Positions 3,048-23,329 of a DNA stretch of 64,000 nucleotides are shown here, piece by piece. Position 1 is the stretch's first letter. Every line of letters begins with the position of its first letter. This stretch comes from Tsuneonella suprasediminis (lineage in GTDB: Bacteria; Pseudomonadota; Alphaproteobacteria; Sphingomonadales; Sphingomonadaceae): contig NZ_RAHJ01000018.1 in NCBI RefSeq assembly GCF_003605755.1, positions 372,001-436,000 on the forward strand, read 5' to 3'. The notes beneath the pieces are model-generated. The model worked only from the letters and a program-made list of their open reading frames with translations, did not search any database and was not told the origin of the DNA. The translations under genes and the position numbers were made by a program.

Positions 3048-3059
3048 GGGGGAACATCA

Positions 3060-4562: not shown

Positions 4563-4623
4563 TGCTACTGTTCCTATACGGCATGGATAAATCGCAGTAA
4601 ATCTTGCGAGATGTGGGCATGTT

Positions 4624-4650: not shown

Positions 4651-4664
4651 GTATTATTTATGAA

Positions 4665-4681
4665 TGGTAAAAAATTTACCA
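4665..4681. promoter_or_regulatory. 17-bp palindrome TGGTAAA-AAA-TTTACCA
   Basis: Seven-base arms are perfectly complementary around AAA. It lies 14 bases after the previous inverted repeat, within the AT-rich part of the intergenic region, so both could bind the same class of regulator. Confidence 0.45.
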
Positions 4682-4903
4682 GAAAACATTGCTGTATTTT
4701 GCTGATTTACGACTTCTTGCGTTCCTTTAGGGGTGCGCGATTGTCGCAGTGTGTCAACGCTTTGCTTCGCCCTGCCAGCTTTTATTCGGGGTTCGGCGCA
4801 TGGGGCGGCAGACGAAAGCATGCCGCTACTGCGCGCTATGCACGTTTACCGGGAGCGCAGGCAGGTCATGCATATCATGCGGTGACATGCGCCATTGGCG
4901 TGC

Positions 4904-4940
4904 CTGTGATCCGATGTCTTGCCTGGGCATCGGATCACGG
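4904..4940. promoter_or_regulatory. Inverted repeat just upstream of the 4974 gene
   Basis: Arms GTGATCCGATG (4906-4916) and CATCGGATCAC (4928-4938) are perfect complements around 11 bases, and two further base pairs (one G-U in RNA) extend the stem. The end is 33 bases from the ATG at 4974. It could be an operator or, if transcribed, a leader hairpin. There is no T-run, so it is not a typical terminator. Confidence 0.5.
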
Positions 4941-4973
4941 AAGGCATAGCGCACCGTCGAATTTGATCGGGAA

Positions 4974-7754: not shown

Positions 7755-9004
7755 AGGCGCGCCTCGCCGGTGGCGTTCCGCTGCTGGCTGCATATGCTGC
7801 ATCGAAGGCGATGCAACTTGCCATAACTGTGCTGCTGGCGCGTTTGTTGAGCAAGGAGGAGGCAGGATCGGCGTTCTATCTGGTAGGGTTAATCGCGTTC
7901 GCACAAGCGATTGGCCCGTTGGGGCTGGATAGCTTTTCCGCCTATGTCCTGCCCCGTTTCCGCCGTTCGGGCGCACTGTGGAAGATGCGGCAGTATGCCG
8001 CGCTGGCGGTCTTGGTGTCGCTGCCGGTCGCGGCGCTGATCGCGGCCGGGCTGGTGTTCGAACGGGCAGAGCGCACGTGGGGCCAGAGTATCGCGCTGCT
8101 GTGCATCGTAGCGGTATGTTCGGCCAGCATGATCTATCGCCGGATCGCGCGAACGACGTTTTTGAGCGGGGCGCAGCGATTGCGGGCGGTGATGCATGAT
8201 ACCGCCACCGTGAACGGGCTGACTATCGCGATATTGCTGATCGCACCGATATCGACGGCATTTGCATTTGGCGTGGTGTTGCTGGGGGCCAACCTGCTGG
8301 CAGCGGTATGGGCGCACCGCGATTTAGGGCGGATCGTTGCGCCCGTGCCCGATGGCCGCCCCGCGCTACCGCACTGGCGGGTGAGGCGGGTAATCATGCC
8401 GATGGCGTTGCCCTCTCTGGTATCGCAGGGGCTGGCGCAGGCGCTCAACCGGATCGATGTCCTGCTGCTCGCGCCGCTATCGACTATCGATCAGGTGGCG
8501 GATTTCAGTGTCGCCATCCGCATCACTTTCTTTCTTCAGATCGTGCCCGAACTCGTGGGCCTGATCGCCGGGCCGCGCCTGTTGCTGCTGGGGCTGGGCA
8601 ATACTGACGCGCAGCATCGTTTCGTGCAGACGACATTGCTGGCCGCCGCCGGGCTCTCGCTGGCGATCGCACTGCCATTGATCCTGTTTCCCGGCCCGTT
8701 GCTGGCGGGCGTGTTTGGCCCGGAATATCGACAGGCGGGCGGTGTTCTGGCGGTGCTGGCTGCGGGCAAGCTGATTACTGCCCCGTTCAATGCCCTGATG
8801 CCGATGTTCGTAACGCTGGGCCAAAATGGCCGGATCGCCCGGATTGTTGGGGTAGGGGCGGCGATCAATCTGGTGGCTGGCTTTGTTTTGATCCCTGCCC
8901 ACGGCGCGATGGGCGCGGCGGTGGGCACTGCGCTGGCGCTGGCCGCTATGGGGATCGGTTATTGGCGGCTGTACTGCTCGCTCGTCGCCGGGTGGCGCGC
9001 ATGA
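7751..9004 (+). CDS. Wzx-like polysaccharide flippase
   Basis: 417-aa inner-membrane protein of the MATE/MVF/PST superfamily with about 12 predicted hydrophobic helices spread over the whole length (for example GVPLLAAYAASKAMQLAITV at the N-terminus and VGAAINLVAGFVLIP near the C-terminus). Known family role: moves undecaprenyl-linked repeat units from the cytoplasmic to the periplasmic face. Start and stop codons overlap those of both neighbours (pyruvyl transferase and putative polymerase), as expected for a Wzx/Wzy-type cluster. The exact subfamily cannot be decided by eye. Confidence 0.85.
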   Translation: MKARLAGGVPLLAAYAASKAMQLAITVLLARLLSKEEAGSAFYLVGLIAFAQAIGPLGLDSFSAYVLPRFRRSGALWKMRQYAALAVLVSLPVAALIAAGLVFERAERTWGQSIALLCIVAVCSASMIYRRIARTTFLSGAQRLRAVMHDTATVNGLTIAILLIAPISTAFAFGVVLLGANLLAAVWAHRDLGRIVAPVPDGRPALPHWRVRRVIMPMALPSLVSQGLAQALNRIDVLLLAPLSTIDQVADFSVAIRITFFLQIVPELVGLIAGPRLLLLGLGNTDAQHRFVQTTLLAAAGLSLAIALPLILFPGPLLAGVFGPEYRQAGGVLAVLAAGKLITAPFNALMPMFVTLGQNGRIARIVGVGAAINLVAGFVLIPAHGAMGAAVGTALALAAMGIGYWRLYCSLVAGWRA

Positions 9005-10323
9005 TCGATATCGTGGGATATGCAGCCGCTCTGCTTAGCTATACGGTGCTGATACTGGCACTGAGATACGCGCGATTTCCCACGATCTCTCCGGCGACGT
9101 TTCTGGTGGCGGTGTACCTGCTGCAATATGGTCCGCACACGCTGATCCGCAGCTTGCGCGATCTGAGCGCGGGTGTGAGCGATGCAGTGGAGATGCGATA
9201 CGTGCTCGCTGTCACGCTCGCCAGTTACTGTATCGCGCTGGCCATGCTGGCCGTGCGCGCCGCTTATCCAAGTGCGATTGCGCCGGAGATTGCCATCAGG
9301 GGTGCAAGCGCGCCGTTGTTGTTCCGCAACCGGCAGGCGGCGATCTGGCTGATCGCGATCAGCGCGATGTTCTGCATGGCGTTCCTTGCCGTCGAGCTGG
9401 CCGGTCCGCCTCGACTGAAAGGCATTGTCGATTATCTGCGCGGAACTTCGCCCCACAGCTACACCGCGTTGCGACGCCAGCTTTTCAGTGACGCACCGAT
9501 AGAGCTGCTGATGAACTATACCCGGCAAACGGTGTCGATCGTGCTGTTGCTGCTCAATGTGGTGGTCGCGACACGCTATCGCTCGCTGCGGATTGCGGCG
9601 ACGATCATGGCCGTGGCGGTTTTCGTTTTCACGATGGTCCAGTTGAACAAGTTCCCGCTGATCTACACGTTGTTCGCTGTGGGGATGGTGCTGTTCGCAT
9701 ACTCTCGCGGCAGACTGTCACTGACATCGAAAGAGAGGGCCGCCGCCGCCCTGGTGGTGGTGGCTGCGATGGGGCTGATATTCGTGCTCTATCTGGTGCA
9801 ATACCGTGCAGCCCTGGCCGATGGATTGCTGGCGCGCGGCGATCTGGTGAAGCTGGTGTTTTATCGAGCGGCCTTCGCTCAGGCCGATGCATTGCGGCTG
9901 TGGTTCAGCGAATTTCCGGCCCGCACCCCGTTTCTGGGCATTCGCAACTATGGCCTGCTGGCCGAATTGCTGGGGCAGAAGTACTTTAACGTAACCAGCT
10001 TCATTCCGCGCACTTATTTCGGCGCCGATACGACGTATCAGGTGGGTTTTATCGGATCGGGTTATGCCGGGTTCGGGTGGACGGGGATTGCAGTGTTTGC
10101 TCTGATGGCGGGTGGCATCGCGTCGTTTGCGACCGTAGCGACATCGCGCATCGCTTGGGCCGATCTGCGGCTGGTGCTGACTATCGCGCTATCGATGAAC
10201 ATGTATTTCTTCTGCAGCCGCGAATTCAGCACGGCGCTGCTTTCCGGCGGCATTCTGCCGTTGCTGGCGGTGGCATGGTGGCTGGCCGCCATCGGGCGAA
10301 GGGGCGCAGGCGGCCAGCGATAA
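9001..10323 (+). CDS. Putative Wzy-like repeat-unit polymerase
   Basis: 440-aa inner-membrane protein with roughly ten hydrophobic helices and a large polar loop around residues 260-350 (RAAFAQADALRLWFSEFPAR through RTYFGADTTYQVGF). Wzy polymerases diverge strongly, so the call rests on topology, the late large loop and position directly after a flippase in a polysaccharide operon. It would join flipped repeat units in the periplasm. The ATG at 9001 overlaps the flippase stop codon. It is the last gene of the operon and converges on the CHAT protease gene with only 20 bases between stops. Confidence 0.75.
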   Translation: MIDIVGYAAALLSYTVLILALRYARFPTISPATFLVAVYLLQYGPHTLIRSLRDLSAGVSDAVEMRYVLAVTLASYCIALAMLAVRAAYPSAIAPEIAIRGASAPLLFRNRQAAIWLIAISAMFCMAFLAVELAGPPRLKGIVDYLRGTSPHSYTALRRQLFSDAPIELLMNYTRQTVSIVLLLLNVVVATRYRSLRIAATIMAVAVFVFTMVQLNKFPLIYTLFAVGMVLFAYSRGRLSLTSKERAAAALVVVAAMGLIFVLYLVQYRAALADGLLARGDLVKLVFYRAAFAQADALRLWFSEFPARTPFLGIRNYGLLAELLGQKYFNVTSFIPRTYFGADTTYQVGFIGSGYAGFGWTGIAVFALMAGGIASFATVATSRIAWADLRLVLTIALSMNMYFFCSREFSTALLSGGILPLLAVAWWLAAIGRRGAGGQR

Positions 10324-10343: not shown

Positions 10344-13121
10344 TTACCCCTCGATCAGTACGAACGGCCCCCACACGCCGGGGTTGGCTTCCCCCGGCAT
10401 TCCGGCCCTATCAGCGATCATCTGCAATTGCGCCTCTCGCAAGGCCTGCGCCCGGTCTGCCCCGGTTTCAGCGCGGCGCAGGGTTTCGACCGACAGGAAG
10501 GCTGCTGCATCGTCGCGCACCGGCCAGTGTGACAGCAACAACGAGCGCGCACCCGCCACCTGAAACGCGCGTGCCAGTCCGCCATAAGTCGCGCCGCCGC
10601 GCCCATTTCCAGCGGCGGTGTTGCAGGCAGACAGGATCACCCAGTCGGCGGCAAGGTCCATCGCGGCGATTTCCGATGCAGTCAGCAAGCCATCTTCGGC
10701 AGAAGTCGGCGCGTCGGGTGGCGTCAGCACCAGCGCCGGTTCAGCCAGATCGCGAATTTGCCCACCGACCAGTCCGTGGGTGGAAAACGCCAGCACCCGG
10801 TAATCGCCCAGTGGCGCGGCGCGGACGCTGGCTTCGGTCGCATCAGCGCCAGTCAGCAGCAGGGCATCGTCGTGTGCGAAGGCGTTGCCCATCGCCGTCA
10901 GTTCGGCCAGCGATCCCGGCAAGGACGGCAATGCGCGCAATGTCTTGAGGTCGATATCCATCCCCCTCAACGAACGCGCGTCGCCATTTACGGCGGACAA
11001 AGCAGGCGCGCCGATCCCGGCAAAGGCATGCGACGGCGCTTTGTCCGATGGGGCCAGCGGGCGTAGCGACGGGCGCACGGCAATGGCAAAATCGCGGATC
11101 AGGAAGCGGGGTGTTTTCCCGGCGACCGGGGCCTTGCTCACCAGAACCGAGGGTGGAATCTGCGCCAGTGGCCCGCCTGCGGGGAAGATCAGCTTGCTTT
11201 TCCCTGTCAGCGCGGGCGCAAGCGCGGGGCCGAAGAAACGGCGATAGACTTCGTGCGCGGTGGCGCTGTCGAACGGGGTGGCCGCGCCATTCGCCATGCT
11301 GGATTCTTCCAGCGAAGCGCGCAGCCGGTCGATCAGCGCAGTGGTGGAATTATACGGCGAAGTCGTTTCATGCCAGATCACCGCATCGCGGGTGACAGCG
11401 ATCGTGACATTGCGATCTTCCACTATCAGCGGGATCACAACCGCCTCTGCATCGCTCAGCCCTGCCTGCGTTTCCGCCAGCGTCAGCGGCGTGGGGCGCA
11501 GGATTTCGGCGTGGCGCGGATAATCGCTGTCGAGCTGGCGCTCGACTGCTTCGCGCTGCGCGATGGCGGTGGACAGTGCAGCGGCACCGGCCTTCCCATC
11601 GGCCAGTTGCTGGCGCGTGTCCGCCTCTGCCGCGCGGGCGGCCTGCACCCCTTCCAGCGCAGTGCGGAATCCCTCGGGATCCCCGGGATAGCTGAGTTTG
11701 GCGGACGATATCGCCAGTTCGCCCAGCGTGGCGAGCTGCGCGGCGCGCCATGCCTGTTCCATCCGGCCGGTCTTCAGCGCGACCCATGCGAAATCGCGGA
11801 ACAGCGTGTTGTTCGATGCCGCTACGCTTCGCACATCCTGCGACCGGGCATATGCGTCGAGCATCTTGCTCTCGTTAGTCGCCACGCTGGCCTGCAACAT
11901 CGCGAAGGCGCGGTCCGGATCGCCGGTGCGGGCGAATGTCTTGGCGATCATCACCTCTGCCGTGATCCGCGCCGGGTGCGTAGCAGGCAGCTTGGCGGCA
12001 AAGCCGGTTTCAGCCAGTTCGGCCATCGCGCGCGCATCGGCATTCTGCCCCAGAAAGCTGAGCGCGCGGGCGAGGCGGGACTGGATGAAGGCCCAGCGCA
12101 GATCGCCGGGGTCGGTCCCGTCGAGCAGAGCCAGTCCCTCGCGGTAAGACGCGGCGGCTTCTGCCACTTGCCCTTCGCCCAGCAACAGGCCGCCAATCAG
12201 CTCGCGGTGCATCGCGCGGTCCCCCGCCGGACGACCGCCTTCGACAGTGATCGCAAGCCGGGCAATGTCGAGCGCGGCCTGCCGTTCGCCCAGCCCGGAT
12301 AGCGCGATCGCGCGGTATTGCAGGATGGGGTAGAGCCGCCGATCATCCCGCCCCCATTCGCGGGCCGCCAGATCGGTGATCCGGGCATAGATCGCTGCCG
12401 CTTCGCCAAACCGCCCCGCCGATTGCGCGCGGGCCGCCATATCGTACCATACGTCGATCCACAGCGGGTGGCCTTCGGGCAGGATATCGAGCGCGAGCCG
12501 TTCGGTCCGTTCGACAGCAGCGCGCCCCGCTGTGCGGTCGGCATATTGCAGGTGGCGGCCATATACGTTGGCGAACATGACTTGTGCCGGATCGTCCGCA
12601 GGCAGATCGCGCTGCGCCAGTTCCATCGCCTTGCGGAAAAACGCGACCGCACCGGGAAGATCGTCTCGCAGCATCGCATCGGCGCCCAGCGTCGCCTGCG
12701 ATACCGCGGGGGCAAGCAGGGCGTCTCCCGCCGGTCGAGTGACGAACGCGGCCAGCCGGTTGCGCGCCTTGTCCTTTGCCGCAGCATCGTCGCTGGTTTG
12801 CAGGATCGCGCCTAGCCCGGTCACGGTGGCCAGCGGATCGAGGGCAGACCCCTGATAGCGCGCAAACAGATCGGCGGCGGCCTGATATCGCTCGGAAAAG
12901 TATGCGGCGGTGATCGCTTGCGAAGCGAGCGCGGCGATTTGCTGCGGGTCGAGATCGCCGTCGCCGGATTGCAGCGTGGCAGCGGCAGCTTCGTAGCGGG
13001 CGACGGTGCCGATAAACGGATCGTCCCCCACCGGCGGTGCGCTGTATGCCGGAACTGCGACAGCCATCAGAGCGGCAGCGATAACCGCTCTAGTCGAACA
13101 CCAGGTAATACGATGCCTCAT
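10344..13121 (-). CDS. Exported TPR-CHAT domain protease-like protein
   Basis: 925 aa. A Sec signal peptide is visible (basic start, AVIAAALMAVAVPAYSA, cleavage near residue 27), so it is predicted periplasmic. Residues about 35-500 are alpha-helical TPR-type repeats. The CHAT caspase-like domain fills about residues 560-925, with the catalytic histidine in LAFSTHG (His782) and the cysteine in VILSACNTA (Cys833), followed by GGLARAFQVAGARSLLLSHW. Both catalytic residues are intact. CHAT proteins are known caspase-related peptidases, often part of regulated protein-cleavage systems. The start overlaps the lipoprotein gene by 32 bases. It is the last gene of an operon headed by a two-component system. 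Substrate unknown. Confidence 0.9.
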   Translation of the reverse strand: MRHRITWCSTRAVIAAALMAVAVPAYSAPPVGDDPFIGTVARYEAAAATLQSGDGDLDPQQIAALASQAITAAYFSERYQAAADLFARYQGSALDPLATVTGLGAILQTSDDAAAKDKARNRLAAFVTRPAGDALLAPAVSQATLGADAMLRDDLPGAVAFFRKAMELAQRDLPADDPAQVMFANVYGRHLQYADRTAGRAAVERTERLALDILPEGHPLWIDVWYDMAARAQSAGRFGEAAAIYARITDLAAREWGRDDRRLYPILQYRAIALSGLGERQAALDIARLAITVEGGRPAGDRAMHRELIGGLLLGEGQVAEAAASYREGLALLDGTDPGDLRWAFIQSRLARALSFLGQNADARAMAELAETGFAAKLPATHPARITAEVMIAKTFARTGDPDRAFAMLQASVATNESKMLDAYARSQDVRSVAASNNTLFRDFAWVALKTGRMEQAWRAAQLATLGELAISSAKLSYPGDPEGFRTALEGVQAARAAEADTRQQLADGKAGAAALSTAIAQREAVERQLDSDYPRHAEILRPTPLTLAETQAGLSDAEAVVIPLIVEDRNVTIAVTRDAVIWHETTSPYNSTTALIDRLRASLEESSMANGAATPFDSATAHEVYRRFFGPALAPALTGKSKLIFPAGGPLAQIPPSVLVSKAPVAGKTPRFLIRDFAIAVRPSLRPLAPSDKAPSHAFAGIGAPALSAVNGDARSLRGMDIDLKTLRALPSLPGSLAELTAMGNAFAHDDALLLTGADATEASVRAAPLGDYRVLAFSTHGLVGGQIRDLAEPALVLTPPDAPTSAEDGLLTASEIAAMDLAADWVILSACNTAAGNGRGGATYGGLARAFQVAGARSLLLSHWPVRDDAAAFLSVETLRRAETGADRAQALREAQLQMIADRAGMPGEANPGVWGPFVLIEG

Positions 13122-13683
13122 CTGCCCCCCGATTGGCGATCTCTATCGAATAACGTTGTGTGAAGATGGGTGTAAAGCGGCACGACCGGCCATAGGCAGG
13201 TTCGTGTTCGCACACGACTTTCGCTTTGGCGTCCAGCAGGCGCAGACGCAGCGGATGGCCTTTGCCCCCGGCCACGGAAATCTCGGTCGGCTTCCCGGCG
13301 AGGAAAATCTGGCTGGTCGCGCGCAGCTCTTCAGGTTTCAGTCGCCCGCGCAGGAACCCCGGCCCCAGCGCGCGGCCCCGCAGCGGCGGCCCGCTTTCGG
13401 TGGCGGCCTGTGACCAGCGATCGACTGTCTGTTCCCCGTCGGCATCGAGTGGCTTGACGCCGCGGTTACGCAACCGGTCGAGCAGGGTGGCCAGCGCCGT
13501 GCGGTCGCCCGCGTCATAGGCATCCTGCGCCGCCGCCAGATCGGTCGCGGCGAATACGGCAGAGCCTGCATCGGCAGGCAGGGCGGCGCGTATAGTCCCC
13601 TCGGCAGGCGCAGTGGCACATCCGGCCAGCGCAAATGGCAGCGCAATGGCGATGAACGTCAGCAAGCGGGCCGGGATCGTCAT
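13090..13683 (-). CDS. Hypothetical lipoprotein preceding the CHAT protein
   Basis: 197 aa with a lipoprotein signal peptide and lipobox LAGC (Cys22), so it is probably anchored in the outer or inner membrane facing the periplasm. After an alanine-rich linker, residues 90-197 look beta-rich (GRLKPEELRATSQIFLAG, EISVAGGKGHPLRLRLLDA, RYSIEIANRGADEASYYLV), somewhat like pre-peptidase C-terminal type binding domains. I do not recognise the family. The ATG overlaps the kinase stop codon (ATGA type) and the 3' end overlaps the CHAT gene, so it is translated with both. A role as membrane anchor or partner of the CHAT protein is an inference. Confidence 0.8.
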   Translation of the reverse strand: MTIPARLLTFIAIALPFALAGCATAPAEGTIRAALPADAGSAVFAATDLAAAQDAYDAGDRTALATLLDRLRNRGVKPLDADGEQTVDRWSQAATESGPPLRGRALGPGFLRGRLKPEELRATSQIFLAGKPTEISVAGGKGHPLRLRLLDAKAKVVCEHEPAYGRSCRFTPIFTQRYSIEIANRGADEASYYLVFD

Positions 13684-15071
13684 ACGGCGTCCTCGCTTTC
13701 GGGTTCGACCACGAAGCGCGCGCCAATGGTGCCGGGTACGAGGTGGATTTGCAGCCCGTGGCGCGCCGCGATGGCGCGGGCCAGTGCAAGGCCCAGCCCG
13801 CTGCCCGATTGACCCCCGCTGGCCGCTTTGCCGCGATAGAACCGGTCGAACACCCGCTCGCGGTCGGCATCGGGGATACCGGGGCCATCGTCGCTGACTG
13901 TCAGGACCGGTCCGGGCGCCAGCTCCACCCGGATGGCGCCGTTATCGCGGTTATATTTGAAGGCATTGTCGAGAAGGTTGGTCACGATCCGGCCCAGTTG
14001 CGCTGCATCCCCGATCATGGTCACATCGGGGGCGATTTGCCACTGGAAATCATACCCGGCCTCTTCCGCGCTGTCGGCATAGAGTTCGCAGATACCGCTG
14101 ACCATCGTGCTGAGATCGACCGGCTTCATCCCCTGACTATCACCGGTGCGCGCCTTGCTGGATGCGATGTCGAGCAGCGCCTCCAGCGTGCCGACCAGAC
14201 GGCGGATTTCGCCCCGCGCTTCGGCCAGATGCGCTGCCGTTGTCGGGTCGCTGCCCTGCTGTTTGAGCGCCTTCACCAATCGCGTGTCGAGATGCATCAG
14301 CGGGGTACGGATTTCGTGCGCGATCTGTTCGGATGTTTCGCGGTTCGCTTCGGATAGCTGGCGCGCCCGCTTGATCGCGTCGGCGGCCTGACTGGCGATG
14401 CGGTCGATTTCGTCGGGGCGGTCCGGCATTGTCAGCCGCTTTAGCGCGTCGTCGTCGCTCGCTCTGAATGCGCTGCTGACTTGCGATACGCGCTGGCGAA
14501 TGCGTCCGCTCGCCGCTTGCGCGAACAGCGCGATACAGGCGACGAAAATCGCCCCGCCCAGCAGGAACACTGTCGCTACCCGTGCCAGCAATGGCCCTTC
14601 GTCCAGCGGTTCGTGCGCGACCAGCAGGCGTAGGCCCGGCGCGATCAGCGTGGCGCGGGCATAGGCCTGCGTGCGGTCTCCGATAGGGATGGTTCCGCTT
14701 TCGGATATCGCGGGATCGAGCGCTGGCCACGACTGGATGTCGCCTGCTATCGCGCCGCCCTTTGCATCGGCCAGCAGATAGTGCGGGCGGCTGCCATCCA
14801 CCGGCACCACGGCCAGACGATCGGCAATCCGCCGCTCCAGTTCCGACCGGCCACCGCTGGCGTGAATATCGATCAGACCCGCAAGGTCCACGTCCACATT
14901 GTTGCGGGTGGAGGTGGCCAGCGTTTCGCGGATCGTCTGGTCTGTCACCCACCACAGCCCGAGCAGGAGCACCGCCGACAGGATGGCCGACAGAAAAACG
15001 ATATGCGTGAAGATGGAGCGGCGAGCGATTATGATGTGCGCCCCTGCAACAACCGATATCCCGCGCCCCAC
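13680..15071 (-). CDS. Two-component sensor histidine kinase
   Basis: 463-aa inner-membrane kinase. A transmembrane helix spans about 20-42, a periplasmic sensor domain of about 120 residues follows, and a second helix lies at about 164-186. Then come HAMP, HisKA with the phospho-acceptor His252 (SEQIAHEIRTPL) and HATPase_c with N box TNLLDNAFKYN, G1 VSDDGPGIPD and G2 GSGLGLALARAIAARHG. All expected catalytic motifs are present. The GTG start lies 43 bases inside the response regulator gene; no good start exists further downstream before the first helix. The location of the sensor fits detection of an envelope signal, since all other products of the cluster appear exported. Confidence 0.93.
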   Translation of the reverse strand: MGRGISVVAGAHIIIARRSIFTHIVFLSAILSAVLLLGLWWVTDQTIRETLATSTRNNVDVDLAGLIDIHASGGRSELERRIADRLAVVPVDGSRPHYLLADAKGGAIAGDIQSWPALDPAISESGTIPIGDRTQAYARATLIAPGLRLLVAHEPLDEGPLLARVATVFLLGGAIFVACIALFAQAASGRIRQRVSQVSSAFRASDDDALKRLTMPDRPDEIDRIASQAADAIKRARQLSEANRETSEQIAHEIRTPLMHLDTRLVKALKQQGSDPTTAAHLAEARGEIRRLVGTLEALLDIASSKARTGDSQGMKPVDLSTMVSGICELYADSAEEAGYDFQWQIAPDVTMIGDAAQLGRIVTNLLDNAFKYNRDNGAIRVELAPGPVLTVSDDGPGIPDADRERVFDRFYRGKAASGGQSGSGLGLALARAIAARHGLQIHLVPGTIGARFVVEPESEDAV

Positions 15072-15712
15072 ACCGTTTCCAGCGCGGGGCTGTCGAAGCC
15101 TTCTTCCAGTTTACGGCGCAGGCGGCCGATATTCACGTCCACTACGTTGGTCTGTGGGTCGAACGACATGTTCCACACATCGCGCAGCAGCATTTCGCGG
15201 GTTACGACTTCGCCGGCGTTTTCCATGAAATAGCGGAACAGTTCGAACTCGCGCGGGCTGAGCGGCAAGTGCCGGTTGTCGCGGAACGCGGTGCGCGCCT
15301 TCACATGACATTCGAACGCACCGAACAGGATCACGGCGCTGTGTTCACGCCCCGATGCCCGGCGGTGGAGCGCGCGGATGCGGGCGAGCAGTTCCAGGGC
15401 TTCGAATGGTTTGGCGAGGTAATCGTCGGCCCCGGCCTCCAGTCCTTCGGCCCGGTCGCCGGTGCGGCCCAGCGCGCTGAGCATCAGGATCGGCGTGCTG
15501 ACTCCGCTGCCGCGCAGCCGCTGGACCAGTTCCAGCCCGTCGGCATCGCCCAGCATCCGGTCCATGATAATCACGTCGAACGGTTCCAGCCCGGCACGCT
15601 TCAGCCCGTCGGTGCCGTTGTTTTCGACTACGATGGTGTCGCCCTGTTGCCAGGCGAGTTCGCGCACCTCGGTTGCTGCGCGGGCATCGTCTTCGATGTA
15701 AAGGACTTTCAT
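15029..15712 (-). CDS. OmpR-family response regulator
   Basis: 227 aa. Receiver domain at residues 1-115 with acidic pair EDD (8-9), phosphorylation site Asp51 (VIIMDRML) and Lys in DYLAKPFEALE. A winged-helix DNA-binding domain of OmpR/PhoB type follows (LPLSPREFELFRYFM, GEVVTREMLLRDVW, NVVDVNIGRLRRKLE). I chose the ATG directly before KVLYIEDD; a 42-residue upstream extension in frame has no domain character. It is the first gene of the leftward operon. Its promoter faces the rightward eight-gene operon across 359 bases, so it is the obvious candidate to control both. Confidence 0.94.
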   Translation of the reverse strand: MKVLYIEDDARAATEVRELAWQQGDTIVVENNGTDGLKRAGLEPFDVIIMDRMLGDADGLELVQRLRGSGVSTPILMLSALGRTGDRAEGLEAGADDYLAKPFEALELLARIRALHRRASGREHSAVILFGAFECHVKARTAFRDNRHLPLSPREFELFRYFMENAGEVVTREMLLRDVWNMSFDPQTNVVDVNIGRLRRKLEEGFDSPALETVWGAGYRLLQGRTS

Positions 15713-16071
15713 GCCAGTACCGTAGCCCCCAAACCGCGTGACATATCCTGCGCGCACTGTGCCGATGGATCGATCCCCTCGCAAGCGCGCGCGGACGATT
15801 GCGACGGAAAGGGAATGCCGAAAAGGCGGGCCCCGCAACAGGAGCAGGGCCCGCTAGGTGTCAGGGCAAATGCCCCTCGGGTCGCAATGCCTGTGTAGCA
15901 ACGATCGCTGGCAGCGACCCGTGACAAATCTCGTTAGGAATTCGATTGCGGCCCTTTGCCGGGCGCAGAAACAGACACTTAACAGCAAATGTCATGATTC
16001 TAACGGCAATCGTGTCTGCGCCCTGTACACCGCGCTGAGTAAGAGTGAGCCATCACGGAAGGGATGGGTTC
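15713..16071. promoter_or_regulatory. Shared divergent control region of the CHAT and Sel1 operons
   Basis: 359 bases without a gene between two divergent operons. It contains an 8-bp-stem hairpin GCGGGCCC...GGGCCCGC (15826-15854) and a pair of similar 11-mers, CTTAACAGCAA at 15978 and TCTAACGGCAA at 15999. The 21-base spacing is two helical turns, as for OmpR-family direct repeats. The rightward gene has a clear ribosome site (GGAAGGGATGGG) before 16072. No promoter could be assigned with confidence. Confidence 0.5.
15978..16009. promoter_or_regulatory. Candidate response-regulator direct repeat
   Basis: CTTAACAGCAA and TCTAACGGCAA match at 8 of 11 positions and start 21 bases apart on the same face of the helix. 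They lie 63-94 bases upstream of the first gene of the rightward operon. OmpR-family regulators commonly bind such repeats, and one is encoded next door. No second copy was found elsewhere by eye. Confidence 0.35.
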
Positions 16072-16422
16072 ATGACAATACGGAAAACGATTTGCGGGGC
16101 GGCGATGGTTGCCGTTGCGGTACTGGTTGCAGGGCAGGCACAGGCCAAGGCCAGCAACGAAGCGGTGATGAAGGCGACCGGCGAATGCGTCTATGTCGTG
16201 CATGTTGCGGAATCGAACGGTGCGCGGCTCAACCACTCCAGCGAGCAGTGGGCGCAAGTGATCCATATGTTCGCGGAGCGGTATAAACTCGACGCGAAAT
16301 CCTATGTCGACAAAGCCAAGGCGAAATACCGCAAGCGTTCCAAGGTGATGGGCGCTGACGAAGCGCTGTCGCACATGATGCAGCGCGCGAAAGCCTGCGA
16401 CAAGGAACTGGAGGGGCTGTGA
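16072..16422 (+). CDS. Small exported protein, first gene of the Sel1 operon
   Basis: 116 aa with a clear signal peptide (MTIRKTICGAAMVAVAVLVA, cleavage after AQA near 27). The mature part of about 90 residues is charged and helical, with two cysteines (in GECVYVVHVAES and RAKACDKELEG) that could form a disulfide. No family recognised. I chose ATG 16072 because GGAAGGGATGGG precedes it; an in-frame GTG at 16045 lacks a site. The stop overlaps the next start (ATGA). Resemblance of its 'GECVYV...E' opening to the start of the next protein's mature region (FECGAALNVSESKGIKL) hints at distant paralogy. Confidence 0.8.
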   Translation: MTIRKTICGAAMVAVAVLVAGQAQAKASNEAVMKATGECVYVVHVAESNGARLNHSSEQWAQVIHMFAERYKLDAKSYVDKAKAKYRKRSKVMGADEALSHMMQRAKACDKELEGL

Positions 16423-17375
16423 TGATCCGCCCCGCCAACCCGCCGCGACGGGCAACGATGGCCGCTGCGGCGCTTGCGCTGATCATCTGTGCCGTGCCCG
16501 CTGTGCCGGTGGCGCAGGAAAGCGACGGGGCGGAATACCTGTTCGAATGCGGCGCGGCGCTGAACGTATCGGAATCGAAAGGCATCAAGCTGCCGATTTC
16601 CAGCAAGTTCGCCACCGATCACTTCGTGAAGGAAACCGGCGGCAGCGAAGAGGTGCAGGAACGCGCCGACGCCGAAGTGCGGCGGACATGGACCCGGATC
16701 CGCAAGGAGAAAGGGCAGGCGGGACTGGAAGCATATGTGCTGGGCACTGCACGCGATTGTTCCGATCTCTATCAGGAACTCGCCGCGCGCAAGGCCGGTA
16801 CATACAAGCCGGGTGCCCGGAACGCGGCCACCCGGCAGGCCAGCGCACAGGCTCCGCAGCAAGCCCCAAAACAAGCCCCAAAACAAGCCAGCGCGCCGAT
16901 GCAGTTGAATTCGCTGGGCACATTGTCCGCCGCATCGCTCCGCGCGCATGTCGCCAAAACCGGGGACTATGCAGCGGTCGCGGACTATCTCGTCTATCAC
17001 TATCCCTATGGCAAAGACCTGTTCAAACCGAACGAGGATGGCGATTATCTGGGCGAAATTATCGCGCAGATCGGCGCCAAAGGGGTGCGTAGTTTCAGCG
17101 ACGAAGCGATCTATGCCATCGCCTACAAGCATTACTGGCAATACAACCCGCCAGCCTCGCGCATCATAGAGGCGGAATATACCCGCCGCTTGCGGGCGAA
17201 GCGGCAATCGGTGGATGAAGGGCGCCGCTGGGCCGAACGCGCCGCTGCCGACCGCGCGCAGAAAGCGCGTCAGGCGAATGCGCGCCCCGTCGGCTCCATC
17301 GGGCGGCACTGCGAGAAGAACTATCGCCCGGCCGAACCCGGCAGCCCCGGTGCATGGGTCACCAAATGCTGGTGA
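16419..17375 (+). CDS. Exported protein of unknown function
   Basis: 318 aa with a signal peptide (hydrophobic TMAAAALALIICAVPAVPVA, cleavage near 33). An N-terminal helical domain of about 90 residues contains FECGAALNVSESKG and ARDCSDLYQEL. A low-complexity linker follows (about 145-160) built from repeated QAPKQA. The C-terminal half is helical and aromatic-rich (YLVYHYPYGKDLF, AYKHYWQYNPPAS, RHCEKNYRPAEPG). No family recognised. Its coding sequence overlaps both neighbours, so it is co-translated with the small exported protein and the first Sel1-like protein. Confidence 0.78.
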   Translation: MMIRPANPPRRATMAAAALALIICAVPAVPVAQESDGAEYLFECGAALNVSESKGIKLPISSKFATDHFVKETGGSEEVQERADAEVRRTWTRIRKEKGQAGLEAYVLGTARDCSDLYQELAARKAGTYKPGARNAATRQASAQAPQQAPKQAPKQASAPMQLNSLGTLSAASLRAHVAKTGDYAAVADYLVYHYPYGKDLFKPNEDGDYLGEIIAQIGAKGVRSFSDEAIYAIAYKHYWQYNPPASRIIEAEYTRRLRAKRQSVDEGRRWAERAAADRAQKARQANARPVGSIGRHCEKNYRPAEPGSPGAWVTKCW

Positions 17376-18532
17376 TCCGCCTTTCGTCGGCCGCGCGCGC
17401 CGCTATCCCCGCCATTGCCACCATGGCGATTGCGGCGGCAGCGTGGCTGTCCGCTCTGTCGCCCGCGTACGCGCAACCGGGGGGCGCGGTGAGTGCCGCG
17501 ATTGCGCGCTGCGAAGCGGGTGACAGAGCGGCTTGCGGCGAAGCGGGCATGGCGCTGTCCGACACAGCCAGCCCGGCATACGATGCGTTTCTGAGCCTGC
17601 GGTTCCTGCAACAGGCGTGCGCGGCCAGTCAGGCCCCGGCCTGCGGGCGGCTGGCGCTGATCTTCTTCGCGGGGGAAGGGGATGTCGAGCGCGATCTGCC
17701 CAGCGCCGCCAATTTCGCCCAACGCGCCTGTGCAGAACAGGATCGCGACGGCTGCGAAGTGGCCGAAGCGGTGTTTGCCGACAGTGCATCGCCGCTGTTC
17801 GATGCGGAACAGGCGCTGCACTGTCGCCGGGTGAACTGCGACAGCGGCAACCGGCAGTCGTGCATCGATCTGGCGCATATTTATTACACGTTCGACGATT
17901 ATCTGCCCGCGGAACAGATCGCACTCAACGCCTGCCGCCCTGCCGATCCGGCAAGTGCGGACATCTGCCGGTTCGGCAATCAGTTGCAGGCCCGCCGGCA
18001 CAAGATCGAGGCGGAGCAGCAAGCAAAGAAGCAGGCCGCGCTGGATGCACAGGCGCAACGGAATGCGGTGTTCGATGCCTTCATGCAGCGGCGCGATTAT
18101 GACGGGGCGCTGTATTACGCACTCTATCGCACGCGTTCGAAATCGCAGGCGGAGACCGCTGTGATGGCGGCAGCGCGCGCGGGGGCGATGTCGCGCATTT
18201 TCGAAGACCATCTCTACGTGCTGGAATACTGGTTCCCCAGCGGCGCCATCGCCGGAATCGTCGCGTCGGAAATGGCGAAGCGCAAGCGCGGTCGTGGCAA
18301 CGACTGCGGCATCTGGAACTGCACCAATATGCCCGGCGCCAGCACGCGCCGGTGGCAGGCGGCGGGCGGATCGCGCGGGTCGGGGTATCGCTCATCGTCG
18401 GGCGGCAGTTCGTTCACACCGGTCCGCGTACCGAGCAGCGCGCAGATCGCGAAGCAGACCCGCGACCGATACCGATCGTACAATTGCACTGGCAGCAGGC
18501 GGCTCTCCAGCAGCCACCCGACCTGCCAATAA
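17366..18532 (+). CDS. Exported cysteine-rich Sel1/Hcp-like repeat protein, divergent
   Basis: 388 aa with a signal peptide (cleavage near SPAYAQP). Residues about 45-210 hold four or five helix-pair units with regularly spaced cysteines (CEAGDRAACGEAGMALSD, CAASQAPACGRLALIFFAGE, CAEQDRDGCEVAEAVFAD, CRRVNCDSGNRQSCIDLAH), the pattern of disulfide-bridged Helicobacter cysteine-rich proteins. A charged, Gln-rich helix follows, then a Gly/Ser/Arg-rich tail with several cysteines. Such solenoids are known to bind proteins or peptides; Hcp proteins also bind beta-lactams. The start ATG lies 10 bases before the previous stop codon ends. Confidence 0.82.
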   Translation: MLVIRLSSAARAAIPAIATMAIAAAAWLSALSPAYAQPGGAVSAAIARCEAGDRAACGEAGMALSDTASPAYDAFLSLRFLQQACAASQAPACGRLALIFFAGEGDVERDLPSAANFAQRACAEQDRDGCEVAEAVFADSASPLFDAEQALHCRRVNCDSGNRQSCIDLAHIYYTFDDYLPAEQIALNACRPADPASADICRFGNQLQARRHKIEAEQQAKKQAALDAQAQRNAVFDAFMQRRDYDGALYYALYRTRSKSQAETAVMAAARAGAMSRIFEDHLYVLEYWFPSGAIAGIVASEMAKRKRGRGNDCGIWNCTNMPGASTRRWQAAGGSRGSGYRSSSGGSSFTPVRVPSSAQIAKQTRDRYRSYNCTGSRRLSSSHPTCQ

Positions 18533-18552
18533 ACCGAAAATGGGGTGAGACG

Positions 18553-19656
18553 ATGAAGAAGAACATGCCGATCGCGGCACTGGCATTATTGATGGCGGCG
18601 CTGATCGCCGGGCCGGCCAGTGCACAGGCCAATCCCAATTCACCGGCAGAGCGGGCGTGCAAGGCGCGGTACGACGATATTTCCCGCAATCTCAATTCCA
18701 CCCGCCCCGATAAACGCCGGGTCAGCGACGAAGAAATCGGCTGGGCCTTGCGGTATGAACAGGTGAACAAGGCAGGCAAGCCATGTTCCGAAGCCGATCA
18801 ATCGCCGCAGCAGGCCACGGCATCGGCCAAGCCGGAAGCGCAGGCAGTGCGAATGGTCGAAGCGGGCGGCACCGGCAATGCGATGGAAGGGCAGAAAGCC
18901 TACAACTCCGGCGATTTCGCTACGGCCCGCACGAAATATCGCGCCGGGTGCATGACCGATGGCAACGCCGCCGCCTGCACCAATCTGGGCGCGATGGCGC
19001 GCACTGGCAAAGGCGGGGCGAAAGACCTGCCGCTGGCCCGCAGCGCATATCAGCGCGGCTGCGCCAAGGGCATGGCCGAAGCGTGCGAAAACTATGGCTC
19101 CATGCTGAAGAACGGTGTCGGCGGGCCGAAGGATTTTGCCGGAGCAATCGCTCCGCTGACCACTGCCTGCAACGCCAAAATGGCTACGTCGTGCTATGAT
19201 CTGGGCACCAGCTATTTCTATGGCCGGGTGGGCAACGGGCCGGATTATGCCAGGGCGCGGCAATATCTGGCCAAGGCGTGCCCCGGCTATGCCGCCGATG
19301 GCTGCTATGCGCTGGCGATCCTGCAACGCGATGGCAAGGGCGGCGCGGTCGATCTGGCCGGTGCGGCCAAGGCATTTGCCCTGTCGTGCGAAGCGGGCAA
19401 ATCCGACGGCTGCCTCGAATATGGCGTGGCGCAATATGGCGGCGCGGGGATCAGGATCGATATGGCCGGTGCCCGCAGCAGTTTCGGCAAGGCGTGCAAT
19501 ACCGGCAATGCCGGGGCCTGCATGAACGCAGCGATCATGTCGCGCGAAGGGCAGGGCGGTGCGCGCGATCCGGCGGCAGCGAAGCGGTATTTCAACCTCG
19601 GTTGCAAACTGGGCATTCAGGAAGGCTGCAAGCTGGCCGGGCAGGTGGGCGCATGA
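18553..19656 (+). CDS. Exported Sel1-like repeat protein
   Basis: 367 aa with a signal peptide (MKKNMPIAALALLMAALIAG, cleavage after ASA). From about residue 110 there are six or seven 36-residue Sel1-like units, each with paired cysteines, such as CTNLGAMARTGKGG, CENYGSMLKNGVGG, CYALAILQRDGKGG and CMNAAIMSREGQGG. This is the clearest Sel1/Hcp protein of the operon. Predicted location: periplasm, with disulfides formed there. The start has GGGGTGAGACG before it; a longer frame upstream lies within the previous gene. The stop overlaps the next ATG. Confidence 0.9.
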   Translation: MKKNMPIAALALLMAALIAGPASAQANPNSPAERACKARYDDISRNLNSTRPDKRRVSDEEIGWALRYEQVNKAGKPCSEADQSPQQATASAKPEAQAVRMVEAGGTGNAMEGQKAYNSGDFATARTKYRAGCMTDGNAAACTNLGAMARTGKGGAKDLPLARSAYQRGCAKGMAEACENYGSMLKNGVGGPKDFAGAIAPLTTACNAKMATSCYDLGTSYFYGRVGNGPDYARARQYLAKACPGYAADGCYALAILQRDGKGGAVDLAGAAKAFALSCEAGKSDGCLEYGVAQYGGAGIRIDMAGARSSFGKACNTGNAGACMNAAIMSREGQGGARDPAAAKRYFNLGCKLGIQEGCKLAGQVGA

Positions 19657-20105
19657 TCCGCGCAGCAACATTCGCGCTGGCAGCGGTGGCGGCATTGGGT
19701 GCCGCTCAGCCGGGTAGCGCCAGCGAACAGGGCGCACGCGATGCCGCCACCCACAACGCCTTGTACGAAGACGCAAAGAAACTCGGCCTGTCGCCTCAGT
19801 CGGTTTCGGAAATGTACGAATGCGCGGCGATGTGGGACCGCTGGATCTATATCGTCGAAAGCGCGGCAGATGCCGATTTCGTACAGGCGCTGCATCCCGA
19901 ACTCTCGGTCGGCAATGCCAAAGCGCGGCGTATCAAATGGACGCGCGAGGCCCGCCGGTTCGTCGATGCAGACCATGACGAAGACTATCTGGCAGAAAAC
20001 AAGGCCGATGCCGAAAGCGAGGCCGACCGGCGATACACCCGCTATGCCAACGGTGAAGAGCGCGGGTTGAAGGTGATGATGGAATATCTGGGGATATGCC
20101 AGTGA
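19653..20105 (+). CDS. Small exported protein of unknown function
   Basis: 150 aa with a signal peptide (MIRAATFALAAVAALGAAQ, cleavage near GSAS). The mature part is helical and charged (QSVSEMYECAAMWDRWIYIV, DHDEDYLAENKADAESEA, EERGLKVMMEYLGICQ) and has two cysteines, one near each end, that could pair. No family recognised. It resembles the product of 16072 in size, export and cysteine count, but I cannot show homology. Its start overlaps the stop of the Sel1 gene, and its end overlaps the next gene by 10 bases. Confidence 0.78.
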   Translation: MIRAATFALAAVAALGAAQPGSASEQGARDAATHNALYEDAKKLGLSPQSVSEMYECAAMWDRWIYIVESAADADFVQALHPELSVGNAKARRIKWTREARRFVDADHDEDYLAENKADAESEADRRYTRYANGEERGLKVMMEYLGICQ

Positions 20106-20941
20106 CCGGGTGGCATAGGCCCTGCTTGCTCGCCGCGCTGCTGGCCCCGGTCGGTCTGGCGCAACCGGCGCTGGCGCAGGAAGTGACCGGCGATGGCGAG
20201 ATTGCTTACGTCGATCAGGTCGAAACCGTGCTCGTCTGCCCCGACGGCAAATATCAGAGCGGGTGCGACGAATCCGATCTGATCCGCGCGGTGGAGCGGA
20301 TCGAAGACCTGCCGACCGATATCGAAACCCGCTGCCTCTATGAAACGAAGGCGCGGTGTTACCCGGTGGCGTTCGGGCGCATCATCACTGTCGAACAAGG
20401 GCGCCCGCTGACCTGGCAGCATATGGTGCTCTATCCCGAAGACGGGCCACGGGTCGAAATGATGGCGATCCTCGAAGGGGTGACTGCCAACGATTTGTAT
20501 GTGCTGGTCGCGCGGCAGACAGAGGGGTGGTTCGCGCCGCCGCAACTGGTGGAAAACACCAACGAACTGATGCTGCTTCACGGACCGGGCCGCACCGGCG
20601 GCACCGGCATGGGCAATGCCGATATCGTCCTCTCCCGCCACGAACAGGGATGGACCACGTTCGATGTCAACGAACTGCTTTTCGAAGCGGAGCAGATGCT
20701 GCCGGCCGGGTTTTCGCTGGCGAGCGGAGTGAACTTCGATTTCCGCGAGATGTTCGTGGCCGTGCCGGTGAAGCGCGAGAGCGACGGCGGTTGCTGCGCC
20801 ACCGGCGGCACGGCCTTCATCGACCTGGCAATGCCTGCGGGCAATCTGATGAACGTGGCTTCCATCACATTCAACGAAACAAAGCCGGTCGAAACCCACC
20901 GGATACAGGCACCCGGCAGCGAGGCGAATACACATGAATAA
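20096..20941 (+). CDS. Exported protein of unknown function
   Basis: 281 aa with a signal peptide (CLLAALLAPVGLAQPALAQ). The mature protein appears beta-rich with scattered cysteines (VLVCPDGKYQSGCDES, ETRCLYETKARCYPV, DGGCCATGGTAF). Strands such as MVLYPEDGPRVEMMAILEGV and NDLYVLVARQTEGWF suggest a sandwich fold. No family recognised. The start may be ATG 20096 or GTG 20102; both lie inside the previous gene's end. It is the fifth exported orphan or repeat protein in a continuous overlapping series. Confidence 0.78.
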   Translation: MPVTGWHRPCLLAALLAPVGLAQPALAQEVTGDGEIAYVDQVETVLVCPDGKYQSGCDESDLIRAVERIEDLPTDIETRCLYETKARCYPVAFGRIITVEQGRPLTWQHMVLYPEDGPRVEMMAILEGVTANDLYVLVARQTEGWFAPPQLVENTNELMLLHGPGRTGGTGMGNADIVLSRHEQGWTTFDVNELLFEAEQMLPAGFSLASGVNFDFREMFVAVPVKRESDGGCCATGGTAFIDLAMPAGNLMNVASITFNETKPVETHRIQAPGSEANTHE

Positions 20942-22166
20942 GCCATTCAAGACAGCGATACGGGTAGCTCTGGCAGCGGCGCTGGCGATGGCGTTGCCTG
21001 CTGGCGCGAATGCTCAGGCGCAAACCACGGCGCAGCAGCAACAGATGCAGCAGCAGATCCGCCAGTTTGCCAACATGTACATGGTGACGGACTATGCCCT
21101 CGGCGCCAACGAAAATTGCGACCTGTTCACGCTTGGCGAATATCGCGGCTTGCGGGTGTTTCGCGATCTGCTGCGATCCGATCTCGGCAAAGTGCTGAAG
21201 AAGGAGCAGGTCGATCAACTGAGCCTGTACGACAAAGCAAAGGCCGAATGGAAAGGGTGCCTCGCCCGCGCGAGCCATCCCAAGCAGTGGAAGACGATTG
21301 AGGACGCGCATGTGATGGCGCTGGCGATGATTGCGGCCCCTTCGAATATCGCCAGCGATTCCAAAACCTGCAAAGTGGACGGGGTGTACCAGGCGCTCAA
21401 TCCGACCGAATGGAGGTTCGCGCGCACGGCCTCGGAAAGCGCAGCCGTTATCGCCAAGCGACGGACGGATTACGATGCGTTGACGAAGGAGTTCGCTGCG
21501 ATCATCGACCGGCAGTGCCAGAAAGGCGTGTCGCAGATGATGCAGCCGGGATACGATTCGATCCTGCTGACAGAAGAAAACAATCTGTATCTCCAGAAAG
21601 GCAAAAAGCCGGTTCAGGTGTTCACATCGGTCGGCACCTACATCTCCGCCACCCCGATTTCGGCGGACATGGGAGCGTGGCGCTCGCGGCTTGGTAGCTT
21701 TCTTGGCACCCGCCCATCGCGGGGCCTGAACGTCTATCGCGTGCTCGACCGGGGGGATAAGCCGGTGGTGTTCTTCCACCTCTCCCGCCCCGGCACATTC
21801 GATCCGCACGGCAAGATACTGGTTGCCCGGCAGGGCGGCTGGATCGCCAGATTACGGAGCAATGTGGACGAAGTCGCGCTGAACCTGCCCGATGGATCGC
21901 GCATTGCGCTGACCAAGCAATCGGGCAGCGGCACCAACGTAATCGGCTCATCGGAATTCGTCCTGCCGCCCGATGGCAAAGCGAAGCTGGCGCGGCTGAG
22001 CGACGATGCGGCGGTCACGGTATCCTATCGCATGAATGGCAAGGAATGGACGCCATTCCTCGAAATCGGGCGCGACCCACCGGTGCAGAGCCAGAAAATG
22101 GGCAATATCCGCAAGGCGCTGATCTGGGCGAATGCGCCGATGCCTGCGAAGGAGGGCCGGCTGTGA
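20934..22166 (+). CDS. Exported Gln-rich protein of unknown function
   Basis: 410 aa with a signal peptide (AIRVALAAALAMALPAGANA). A short Gln-rich stretch follows (TTAQQQQMQQQIRQF, residues 31-45), then a helical domain to about 200 with four cysteines (NENCDLFTLGEY, WKGCLARASH, SKTCKVDGVYQ, RQCQKGVSQMM). A beta-rich C-terminal half follows (VQVFTSVGTYISATPI, KPVVFFHLSRPGTFD, AAVTVSYRMNGKEW). No family recognised. The ATG overlaps the preceding stop by 8 bases, and the stop overlaps the GTG of the last gene. Confidence 0.78.
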   Translation: MNKPFKTAIRVALAAALAMALPAGANAQAQTTAQQQQMQQQIRQFANMYMVTDYALGANENCDLFTLGEYRGLRVFRDLLRSDLGKVLKKEQVDQLSLYDKAKAEWKGCLARASHPKQWKTIEDAHVMALAMIAAPSNIASDSKTCKVDGVYQALNPTEWRFARTASESAAVIAKRRTDYDALTKEFAAIIDRQCQKGVSQMMQPGYDSILLTEENNLYLQKGKKPVQVFTSVGTYISATPISADMGAWRSRLGSFLGTRPSRGLNVYRVLDRGDKPVVFFHLSRPGTFDPHGKILVARQGGWIARLRSNVDEVALNLPDGSRIALTKQSGSGTNVIGSSEFVLPPDGKAKLARLSDDAAVTVSYRMNGKEWTPFLEIGRDPPVQSQKMGNIRKALIWANAPMPAKEGRL

Positions 22167-23329
22167 GCGCGCTGATCCTTCGTTTCCTCGCGCCGGTTGT
22201 GCTGATCACGCTCGGCCTTGCTCCTCTCCCTGTACAGGCGACGGAGCCTGCCGCCGATCCTGCCCCGGCTGCCGATCCGGCCACCGGGTGCGAGGCCGAT
22301 CGCAACGGGCGGGCCTGTCTCGATCAGGCGATCCGGCTCTATCATGGCAAGGATATCGCGCAGGATTACACCGCTTCCCGCCGGTTCGCGGCCAGGGCTT
22401 GCGCGCTGGAGGAAATGCTGGGCTGCAACTACCTCGGCGCACTGCTGGAAGATGGGCTGGGTGGCCCGGTCGATGTGCCCGGCGCGGTGCGGAATTACCG
22501 CCGCGCGTGTGATGGCGGCTATAGCGGGGCGTGTCACAATCTGGGGCAGACGCTGTATGAAAACGCAGTGAAAGGCTCCCCCGAACTGGCAGATGCCCGT
22601 GCCGCCTTTGTCAAAGGGTGCGAGGCCAGCATCCCGGATTCGTGCAACAATTATGCCGTGATGATGAAATTCGGGGAAGGCGGGCCACAGGATCTGGTCG
22701 GCGCGGTGTCGATGTTCGAGGCGGTGTGCGAAGAAGGCAAGAACGTCGATGCCTGCGCCAATCAGGGTTACATGCTGATAATGGGCGAAGGCATCGCGAA
22801 AGACCCGGCCCGCGCGGCAAAGCTGCTGAGCGGTGCGTGCGAACAAGGCTCCACTTTCGCCTGCGACAATTACGGGCTGATTCTCGTCAACGGTCTTGCC
22901 GGGGATCGCGATCCGTCGCGTGCGAAATCGCTGTTTGCCGCTGCCTGCAAGAGCGGTGAAACCAACGCCTGCTACAATCTGGGTGAAGTGCTGATAGACG
23001 ATCTGGCCGGGGCGAAAGATCTGCCCGCCGCCCGCGCCGCTTACAGCACAGCCTGCGATGGCGGCATCGTCAGCGCGTGCAGCAAACTGGCGCAGATGAA
23101 GTTCGATGGTCAGGGCGGCCCGCAGGATCGCCCCGCCGCGCGGCAGATGTATGCCGACCTGTGCAGCGGCGGCGATGCCCGTTCTTGCATGACCTTCAAC
23201 GTGCTGGCCGAATTGGGCGAAGGCGGCCCACGTGACCGTGCGGCATCGAACCACGCGCTGGAAAAGGGATGCAGCCTTGGTCATGAGATCGCCTGTTCGG
23301 CGCTGAAGATACGCCAGGGCGAGAAATAG
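22163..23329 (+). CDS. Exported Sel1-like repeat protein, last gene of operon
   Basis: 388 aa. The GTG start overlaps the previous stop and gives a good signal peptide (SALILRFLAPVVLITLGLAP, cleavage after VQA). Eight or nine Sel1-like units cover residues about 45-385, most starting with a cysteine that precedes the second helix: CNYLGALLEDGLGG, CNNYAVMMKFGEGG, CANQGYMLIMGEG, CDNYGLILVNGLAG, CYNLGEVLIDDLAG, CMTFNVLAELGEGG. The repeat pattern closely matches that of the 18553 product, so they are paralogues. Predicted periplasmic solenoid for protein or peptide binding. Confidence 0.9.
   Translation: MSALILRFLAPVVLITLGLAPLPVQATEPAADPAPAADPATGCEADRNGRACLDQAIRLYHGKDIAQDYTASRRFAARACALEEMLGCNYLGALLEDGLGGPVDVPGAVRNYRRACDGGYSGACHNLGQTLYENAVKGSPELADARAAFVKGCEASIPDSCNNYAVMMKFGEGGPQDLVGAVSMFEAVCEEGKNVDACANQGYMLIMGEGIAKDPARAAKLLSGACEQGSTFACDNYGLILVNGLAGDRDPSRAKSLFAAACKSGETNACYNLGEVLIDDLAGAKDLPAARAAYSTACDGGIVSACSKLAQMKFDGQGGPQDRPAARQMYADLCSGGDARSCMTFNVLAELGEGGPRDRAASNHALEKGCSLGHEIACSALKIRQGEK

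Follow-up and report, generated by a model that had tools for sequence, protein, structure and literature searches.

A divergent two-operon module with its own sensor

In a 64,000-nucleotide (nt) stretch of the genome of Tsuneonella suprasediminis (contig NZ_RAHJ01000018.1, positions 372,001 to 436,000), hereafter the window, in whose positions coordinates are given, we find 12 genes in two divergent runs that, on balance and with some reserve, we read as a dedicated envelope regulon consisting of a sensor core, regulator boxes, both operons, an RNA-like element, and an exported CHAT protein along with a set of solenoid and orphan proteins. The gene set, its conservation, the box, the RNA-like element, and the dyad of the CHAT protein are direct observations. 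The leftward run encodes a response regulator (RR), a histidine kinase (HK), a lipoprotein, and the TPR-CHAT protein, and the rightward run encodes the proteins denoted E1 to E8. A first-pass annotation of the window described two divergent runs of overlapping genes around 359 bp, and the gene coordinates bear this out: 359 bp (15713-16071) separate the starts of RR and E1, and adjacent genes overlap at every junction except E3-E4, where there is a gap of 20 bp.

All 12 genes are present, in the same order and at 82-99% identity (99% for the RR), in T. flava, the nearest named relative found, and we therefore take all of them to be real. Two genomes of one other genus, G329 (locus L055) and G263 (locus L056), also have the divergent module; there, E6 and E7 are 41-46% identical and the E operon holds relatives of E1, E4, E6, E7, and E8, a further Sel1-like protein (below the cut-off), and a DUF3617 protein in the place of E5, without E2. 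(Genes in other genomes were called with our own script, which sometimes trims starts, and all genome counts are to be read as "at least" because only some candidates were scored per genome.) In all four genomes with the full divergent module, the CHAT gene is the fourth of the left operon, whatever the CHAT lineage. The proposal that the exported set co-occurs with the genes for CHAT and the two-component pair thus held in T. flava, G329, and G263. That two unrelated operons happen to be divergent neighbors here, as a patchy distribution (E7 in 2 of the 11 genomes of the genus) might suggest, is exceedingly improbable, given that another genus keeps this divergent arrangement, at roughly 40% identity, together with conserved boxes and RNA element.

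The sensor core and its changing neighbors

The RR (15029-15712, minus strand; 227 amino acids) is of the OmpR/PhoB type, with the receiver (Response_reg, 74.8 bits) and the winged-helix output domain (Trans_reg_C, 92.4 bits) both above the Pfam cut-offs. The HK (13680-15071, minus strand; 463 amino acids, start uncertain) carries a HATPase_c domain above the cut-off (82.2 bits, E value 4.7e-23) and a HisKA match of 19.4 bits against a cut-off of 26.9. The third gene of the core (13090-13683, minus strand; 197 amino acids) encodes a protein with a lipobox pattern that reaches no Pfam or NCBIfam cut-off; its structure model (predicted local distance difference test score, pLDDT, 83) combines N-terminal helices with a C-terminal beta sandwich for which fold matches indicate a resemblance to PPC, GOLD, and PliG domains.

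Relatives of this lipoprotein occur in at least 28 of the 296 genomes of the order, and 28 loci from 27 other genomes were fetched. At 25 of these, all but L079, L080, and L081, the RR and HK genes adjoin the lipoprotein gene, which was found as a called gene at 24 of the core loci and placed by its profile-search position at L067; across the core loci, truncated L075 aside, the RR is 46-86% identical to that of the window. When genomes were drawn from the whole class, the profile of the lipoprotein matched 5 of 385, namely, that of T. suprasediminis itself and four others with partial or weak matches, and for this reason the RR-HK-lipoprotein core may for the most part not extend beyond this order. 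A FastTree phylogeny of RR and HK, built from the window, T. flava, and 22 core loci (of the 25; L068, L075, and L077 were omitted), places the two Tsuneonella species beside G329 and G263 with support 1.0.

The core mostly keeps company other than that in the window: within ten genes of the kinase, CHAT proteins are encoded at 14 of the 25 loci, SH3-like proteins at 10 (the member scanned falls short of the SH3_3 cut-off), a giant repeat protein at 6, and a Slam-like TPR-barrel protein at 5. Sel1-type matches are found at four core loci only (L055, L056, L076, and L078). The Slam-like gene lies beside that of the giant repeat protein at L054 (2273-7594) and L061 (13574-19891), where the latter protein has, by eye, a FecR-like start and a TbpB-like end. 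Both this reuse of the kinase core with other neighbors and the RNA-like element described below go beyond the first-pass annotation.

A box shared by both operons

Alignment of the four control regions yields short conserved blocks with a common element, TAAC-N6-TGTCA, a putative regulator box that occurs in the window once facing the RNA element and the RR operon (15922-15936, minus strand) and once facing the E operon (15980-15994, plus strand), the latter followed 21 bp on by a degenerate copy (about 16001-16016). At the 25 core loci (466,810 bases), there are 29 exact matches, at 20 loci, all of them intergenic and none within a called gene; without L055 and L056, which were used to define the box, 25 matches at 18 of 23 loci remain. 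One hundred letter-shuffled patterns gave a mean of 0.19 matches and a maximum of 2, and other gaps from 2 to 13 gave 0 to 2. One-mismatch copies lie between genes at L059, L062, L070, and L074, and truncated L075 has none. A stricter form, TAACNGNNNTTGTCA, gives 42 matches in 24 genomes, being present in 21 of them, against 13 for the reversed control. Of these 42 sites, 16 are at core loci, and 20 of the other 26 were fetched (6 were left).

Among the sites away from core loci, an exact box stands directly before a distant E3-E4 pair in G089 (51% and 48% identity), and one in G348 precedes a copy of the RNA element. Three sites are flanked by an SH3-like gene and a gene in divergent orientation, with the box facing the latter; in G239, which holds one of the three, a CHAT gene stands three genes further along. 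The remaining 15 of the 20 fetched sites have no module-type gene beside them, but at three of these (L160, L161, and L168), far from a core locus, the box directly precedes genes for 227-amino-acid proteins that appear, by eye, to be exported.

The box is shared in both directions, is intergenic at the core loci, and precedes the distant E3-E4 pair in G089, so that the proposed control of both operons by the two-component pair is well supported in silico, and we consider control by this RR, via the predicted boxes, a strong inference. A -10-like CTA lies 38-40 nt from the box start at 10 of 32 sites, which may hint at a promoter class. A scan of the control region for consensus elements returned no sigma-70 or terminator consensus; the U run of the RNA hairpin, which is weaker, came from our own scan.

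An RNA-like element between box and regulator

Between the left box and the RR gene, all four module genomes have a stretch of 71-72 nt (15817-15888, minus strand, in the window) in which UGCGACCC and ACACCU are unchanged and which comprises a small hairpin and a strong, terminator-like hairpin with a U run; the letters of the strong stem differ between the two genera. The element folds better than its shuffles, with z scores of -3.4 to -4.7 in the four genomes and -3.5 for a fifth copy, in G348, which lies far from a core locus (L164, 6050-6118, plus strand), upstream of a co-directional gene unrelated to the module. In all five genomes, the element is found 50-51 nt from the start of a box (51 nt from its own box in L164). 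A covariance model built from four copies found nothing else in 30 sources and, in 44 more, recovered the T. flava copy again and the copy in L164; a model built without L164 also finds the latter (E value 3e-4).

This candidate could act as a small RNA that stops at its own terminator or, alternatively, as a leader attenuator; we favor the small RNA because the element precedes two quite different downstream genes. Identity with the suhB/mmgR RNA (RF00519) was considered and rejected, the match scoring 19.3 bits against a gathering cut-off of 41, with none in the L055 region of G329. In G329 (L055, 7382) and G263 (L056, 12582), an exact complement of UGCGACCC extends into the start codon of the leading gene of the E operon, a feature that E1 of the window lacks. 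When potential targets of UGCGACCC were ranked, the first E gene came 5th of 446 in G329 and 248th in G263, where the ranked start is trimmed; in the window, E1 ranked 294th and the CHAT gene 15th of 446.

The exported proteins

A home-made hydrophobicity scan, rather than a trained predictor, was used to judge N-terminal signals. Of the eight signal peptides initially claimed for the E proteins, all have the hydrophobic N-terminal stretch, and five (not E2, E5, and E8) also have a strict A-x-A motif. The description of three proteins as Cys-rich Sel1-like solenoids likewise stands in part: against a Pfam Sel1 cut-off of 30.7 bits, E4 (18553-19656, plus strand, as are all E genes) scores 32.0 and E8 (22163-23329) 72.8, and both are clear cases, whereas E3 (17366-18532, with a start at 17354 or 17366) is weak, scoring 16.9. 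The 20 Cys of E8 fall into ten steps, each about 36 residues long; in E4, 14 of the 16 Cys are spaced 8-9/28-29, and the first three Cys pairs of E3 share that spacing. In all three proteins, these Cys come in pairs, one pair to a repeat of about 36 residues. Structure searches match E8 to 4bwr (c5321; E value 1.5e-26) and to 1ouv, which we take to be HcpC (E value 8.7e-25).

The other five are orphans: E1 (16072-16422; 116 amino acids), which has relatives in L055 and L056, E2 (16419-17375; 318), E5 (19653-20105; 150), and E6 (20096-20941; 281) reach no Pfam or NCBIfam cut-off, and E7 (20934-22166; 410) reaches no Pfam cut-off (the NCBIfam scan did not include E7 and E8). The model of E7 is too poor to use, with a mean pLDDT of 51 and no fold match at E values up to 0.001; profile searches against solved structures gave a single match for E7 (E value 0.072) and none for E6. 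Among the E-set loci, E2 is restricted to the Tsuneonella pair (88% identity in T. flava), with no match in L055 or L056. E6 is found in at least 9 and E7 in at least 4 of the 296 genomes of the order. In G252 (L101, 8370-13072), a Sel1-like gene, E7, E8 (49%), and a Sel1 gene follow one another in a row, near a relaxase-like gene (by eye).

The CHAT protein and its probable exchange

The fourth leftward gene (10344-13121, minus strand) encodes a TPR-CHAT protein of 925 amino acids with a hydrophobic N-terminus, by the same scan, and a CHAT domain (PF12770) far above the cut-off (162.5 bits against 24; E value 1.9e-47). TPR-CHAT proteases such as Csx29 carry a His/Cys dyad. Here, the His in FSTHG and the Cys in LSACNT, which we take to be the catalytic dyad of CHAT peptidases, are both present, and in the CHAT alignment, THG is found in 22 of 22 rows, as is the Cys motif (19 by pattern and three by eye). 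The dyad and the hydrophobic N-terminus are what points to a protease step, in which the protein could conceivably be active in the periplasm and cut a member of the exported set. No CHAT relatives were found in viral contigs. In the genus, 2 of 11 genomes have the full-length protein and 6 have some CHAT match.

In the CHAT tree, the window protein groups with those of G375 and G315, and the proteins of G329 and G263 group with those of G317, G328, and G348. This tree conflicts with the kinase tree, and a single CHAT clade of the window, T. flava, L055, and L056 is rejected (p 8e-59, for a group named after the tree had been seen and with long branches present); given this disagreement and rejection, the CHAT gene has probably been exchanged between loci while the kinase and the E set stayed together.

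Proposed mechanism and the evidence against it

In the regulon that we favor, the kinase and the PPC-like lipoprotein would sense an envelope cue, and the phosphorylated RR would bind the TAAC-N6-TGTCA boxes in the shared control region, switching on both operons and an RNA of about 72 nt whose start would come shortly after the left box. The encoded proteins, namely, the TPR-CHAT protease, the Cys-paired Sel1 solenoids, and the orphan proteins, would then be exported to act on, or protect, the cell surface, CHAT being the proteolytic member of the set.

Several observations weigh against this reading, the strongest being the probable exchange of CHAT, seen in the conflicting trees and the rejected clade, together with an E7/Sel1 cluster that has no CHAT gene nearby: in G252 (L101), E7 and three Sel1-type genes occur with neither CHAT nor the core kinase in 20 kb. 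In G133, E7 is found without CHAT or the lipoprotein and adjoins a two-component pair that is not the core one and only distantly related to it (33% and 26% identity), and in the same genome, an exact box (L005, 12608) lies inside a called gene about 580 bp upstream of this lone E7 relative. E6-like genes stand away from any module in six genomes; G323, one of the six, carries the core at another place. The first-pass annotation had named wide occurrence of the rightward genes without the CHAT and two-component genes as a finding that would undermine it, and the cases in G252, G133, and the six genomes with E6-like genes amount to about half of that. Furthermore, E3 is under the Sel1 cut-off, 15 of the 20 fetched box sites away from core loci have no module-type gene beside them, and the core loci are related to each other, so that box counts are not independent events. 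In the genome of T. suprasediminis itself, the exact box is not enriched, having 6 matches against 16 for its reversed control; only two of the six are at the module, and no module protein is encoded beside the other four.

It is possible, if doubtful, that the module is instead co-regulated but unlinked cargo, with the core controlling assorted envelope proteins and CHAT acting elsewhere or only as a TPR scaffold. Such an arrangement would fit the exchange of CHAT, but not of the kinase, between loci, the E7-Sel1 cluster without CHAT nearby, the shifting SH3-like, giant repeat, and Slam-like neighbors, and the 11 of 25 core loci without CHAT within ten genes of the kinase (although G239 has a CHAT gene elsewhere, L171); it is at odds with the constant fourth position of CHAT in the left operon of all four full-module genomes.

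Relation to known systems

In Sinorhizobium, the kinase ExoS is kept inactive by the Sel1-repeat protein ExoR, which a periplasmic protease of unidentified nature cleaves (PMC4550343). The ExoR-ExoS-ChvI system of Rhizobiales resembles the module in the combination of a two-component pair, an exported Sel1-repeat protein, and periplasmic proteolysis (here predicted from genes), raising the prospect of a similar feedback, in which a periplasmic Sel1 protein would silence the kinase until CHAT removed it on cue. We consider this very unlikely: E4 does match ExoR faintly (16.9 bits, E value 0.0029), but the ExoR cut-off is 450 (E8 was outside the NCBIfam scan), the HK scores 79.3 bits against a ChvG cut-off of 740, and Sel1-type matches are as rare at the core loci as noted above. 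The module also differs in adding an exported CHAT protein and a lipoprotein. Caulobacter ChvI-ChvG controls the trans-acting small RNA ChvR (PMC6237742), another instance of a two-component system with a small RNA (a candidate one in our case), but the module HK is far under the ChvG cut-off.

Csx29 of Craspase, a caspase-like protein, has TPR-like repeats ahead of its CHAT domain (PMC10028731, PMC9729208), as does the module protein, which differs in its predicted export; no gRAMP/Cas7-11, Csx30, or CRISPR proteins were recognized among the 12 genes, to which this search was confined. The E8 solenoid is akin to the Hcp/SLR proteins HcpC, which is stabilized by disulfides (PMC3851747), and EsiB (c5321); the module solenoids differ in sitting in a kinase-linked operon with orphans. 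BiofilmReg of Burkholderia is a four-gene operon in another order (PMC5192318). PADLOC anti-phage profiles, run on 10 of the 12 proteins (RR and E8 left out), gave only a weak match for the HK (E value 0.00025). In open-license literature, which lacks most subscription papers, no paper describing such a system was found by title or opening abstract.

Other CHAT genes of the genus similarly encode long proteins and stand next to genes whose products are large or secreted but form a separate CHAT clade and have no RR-HK-lipoprotein core in the stretch fetched. These genes (L017-L022) adjoin those of giant proteins, at L019 along with ShlB and CHASE2-cyclase genes.

Genomic surroundings

The GC (guanine plus cytosine) content of the module region is inside the range of the window. 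On the left (447-10323), the neighbors include sugar-epimerase, glycosyltransferase, and pyruvyl-transferase genes and those of two membrane proteins without a Pfam match, flippase- and polymerase-like by eye; together they read as a polysaccharide cluster that ends beside the CHAT gene. On the right are TetR and acyl-CoA dehydrogenase genes; the TetR, considered as an anchor for locating an empty site in other genomes, has a 95% identical relative only in T. flava (47% in G155, others weak).

Implications

The regulatory setting of the module gives the orphan exported families E1, E2, E5, E6, and E7 a context that they lacked. A more specific scheme, which we regard as unlikely, is an envelope proteolytic circuit in which one box would drive a periplasmic CHAT protease, the exported solenoids that it cuts, and a small RNA by which the set is tuned, with the core serving as a platform for swapped cargo and CHAT genes. 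We know of no CHAT protease with a described trigger that is not cytoplasmic, and this circuit, if real, would to our knowledge be without precedent as a CHAT cleavage system that is exported and has a sensor of its own. With an exported CHAT protein encoded beside a sensor, a DNA box, an RNA element, and a few candidate partners, the role of a periplasmic caspase-like protease becomes testable.

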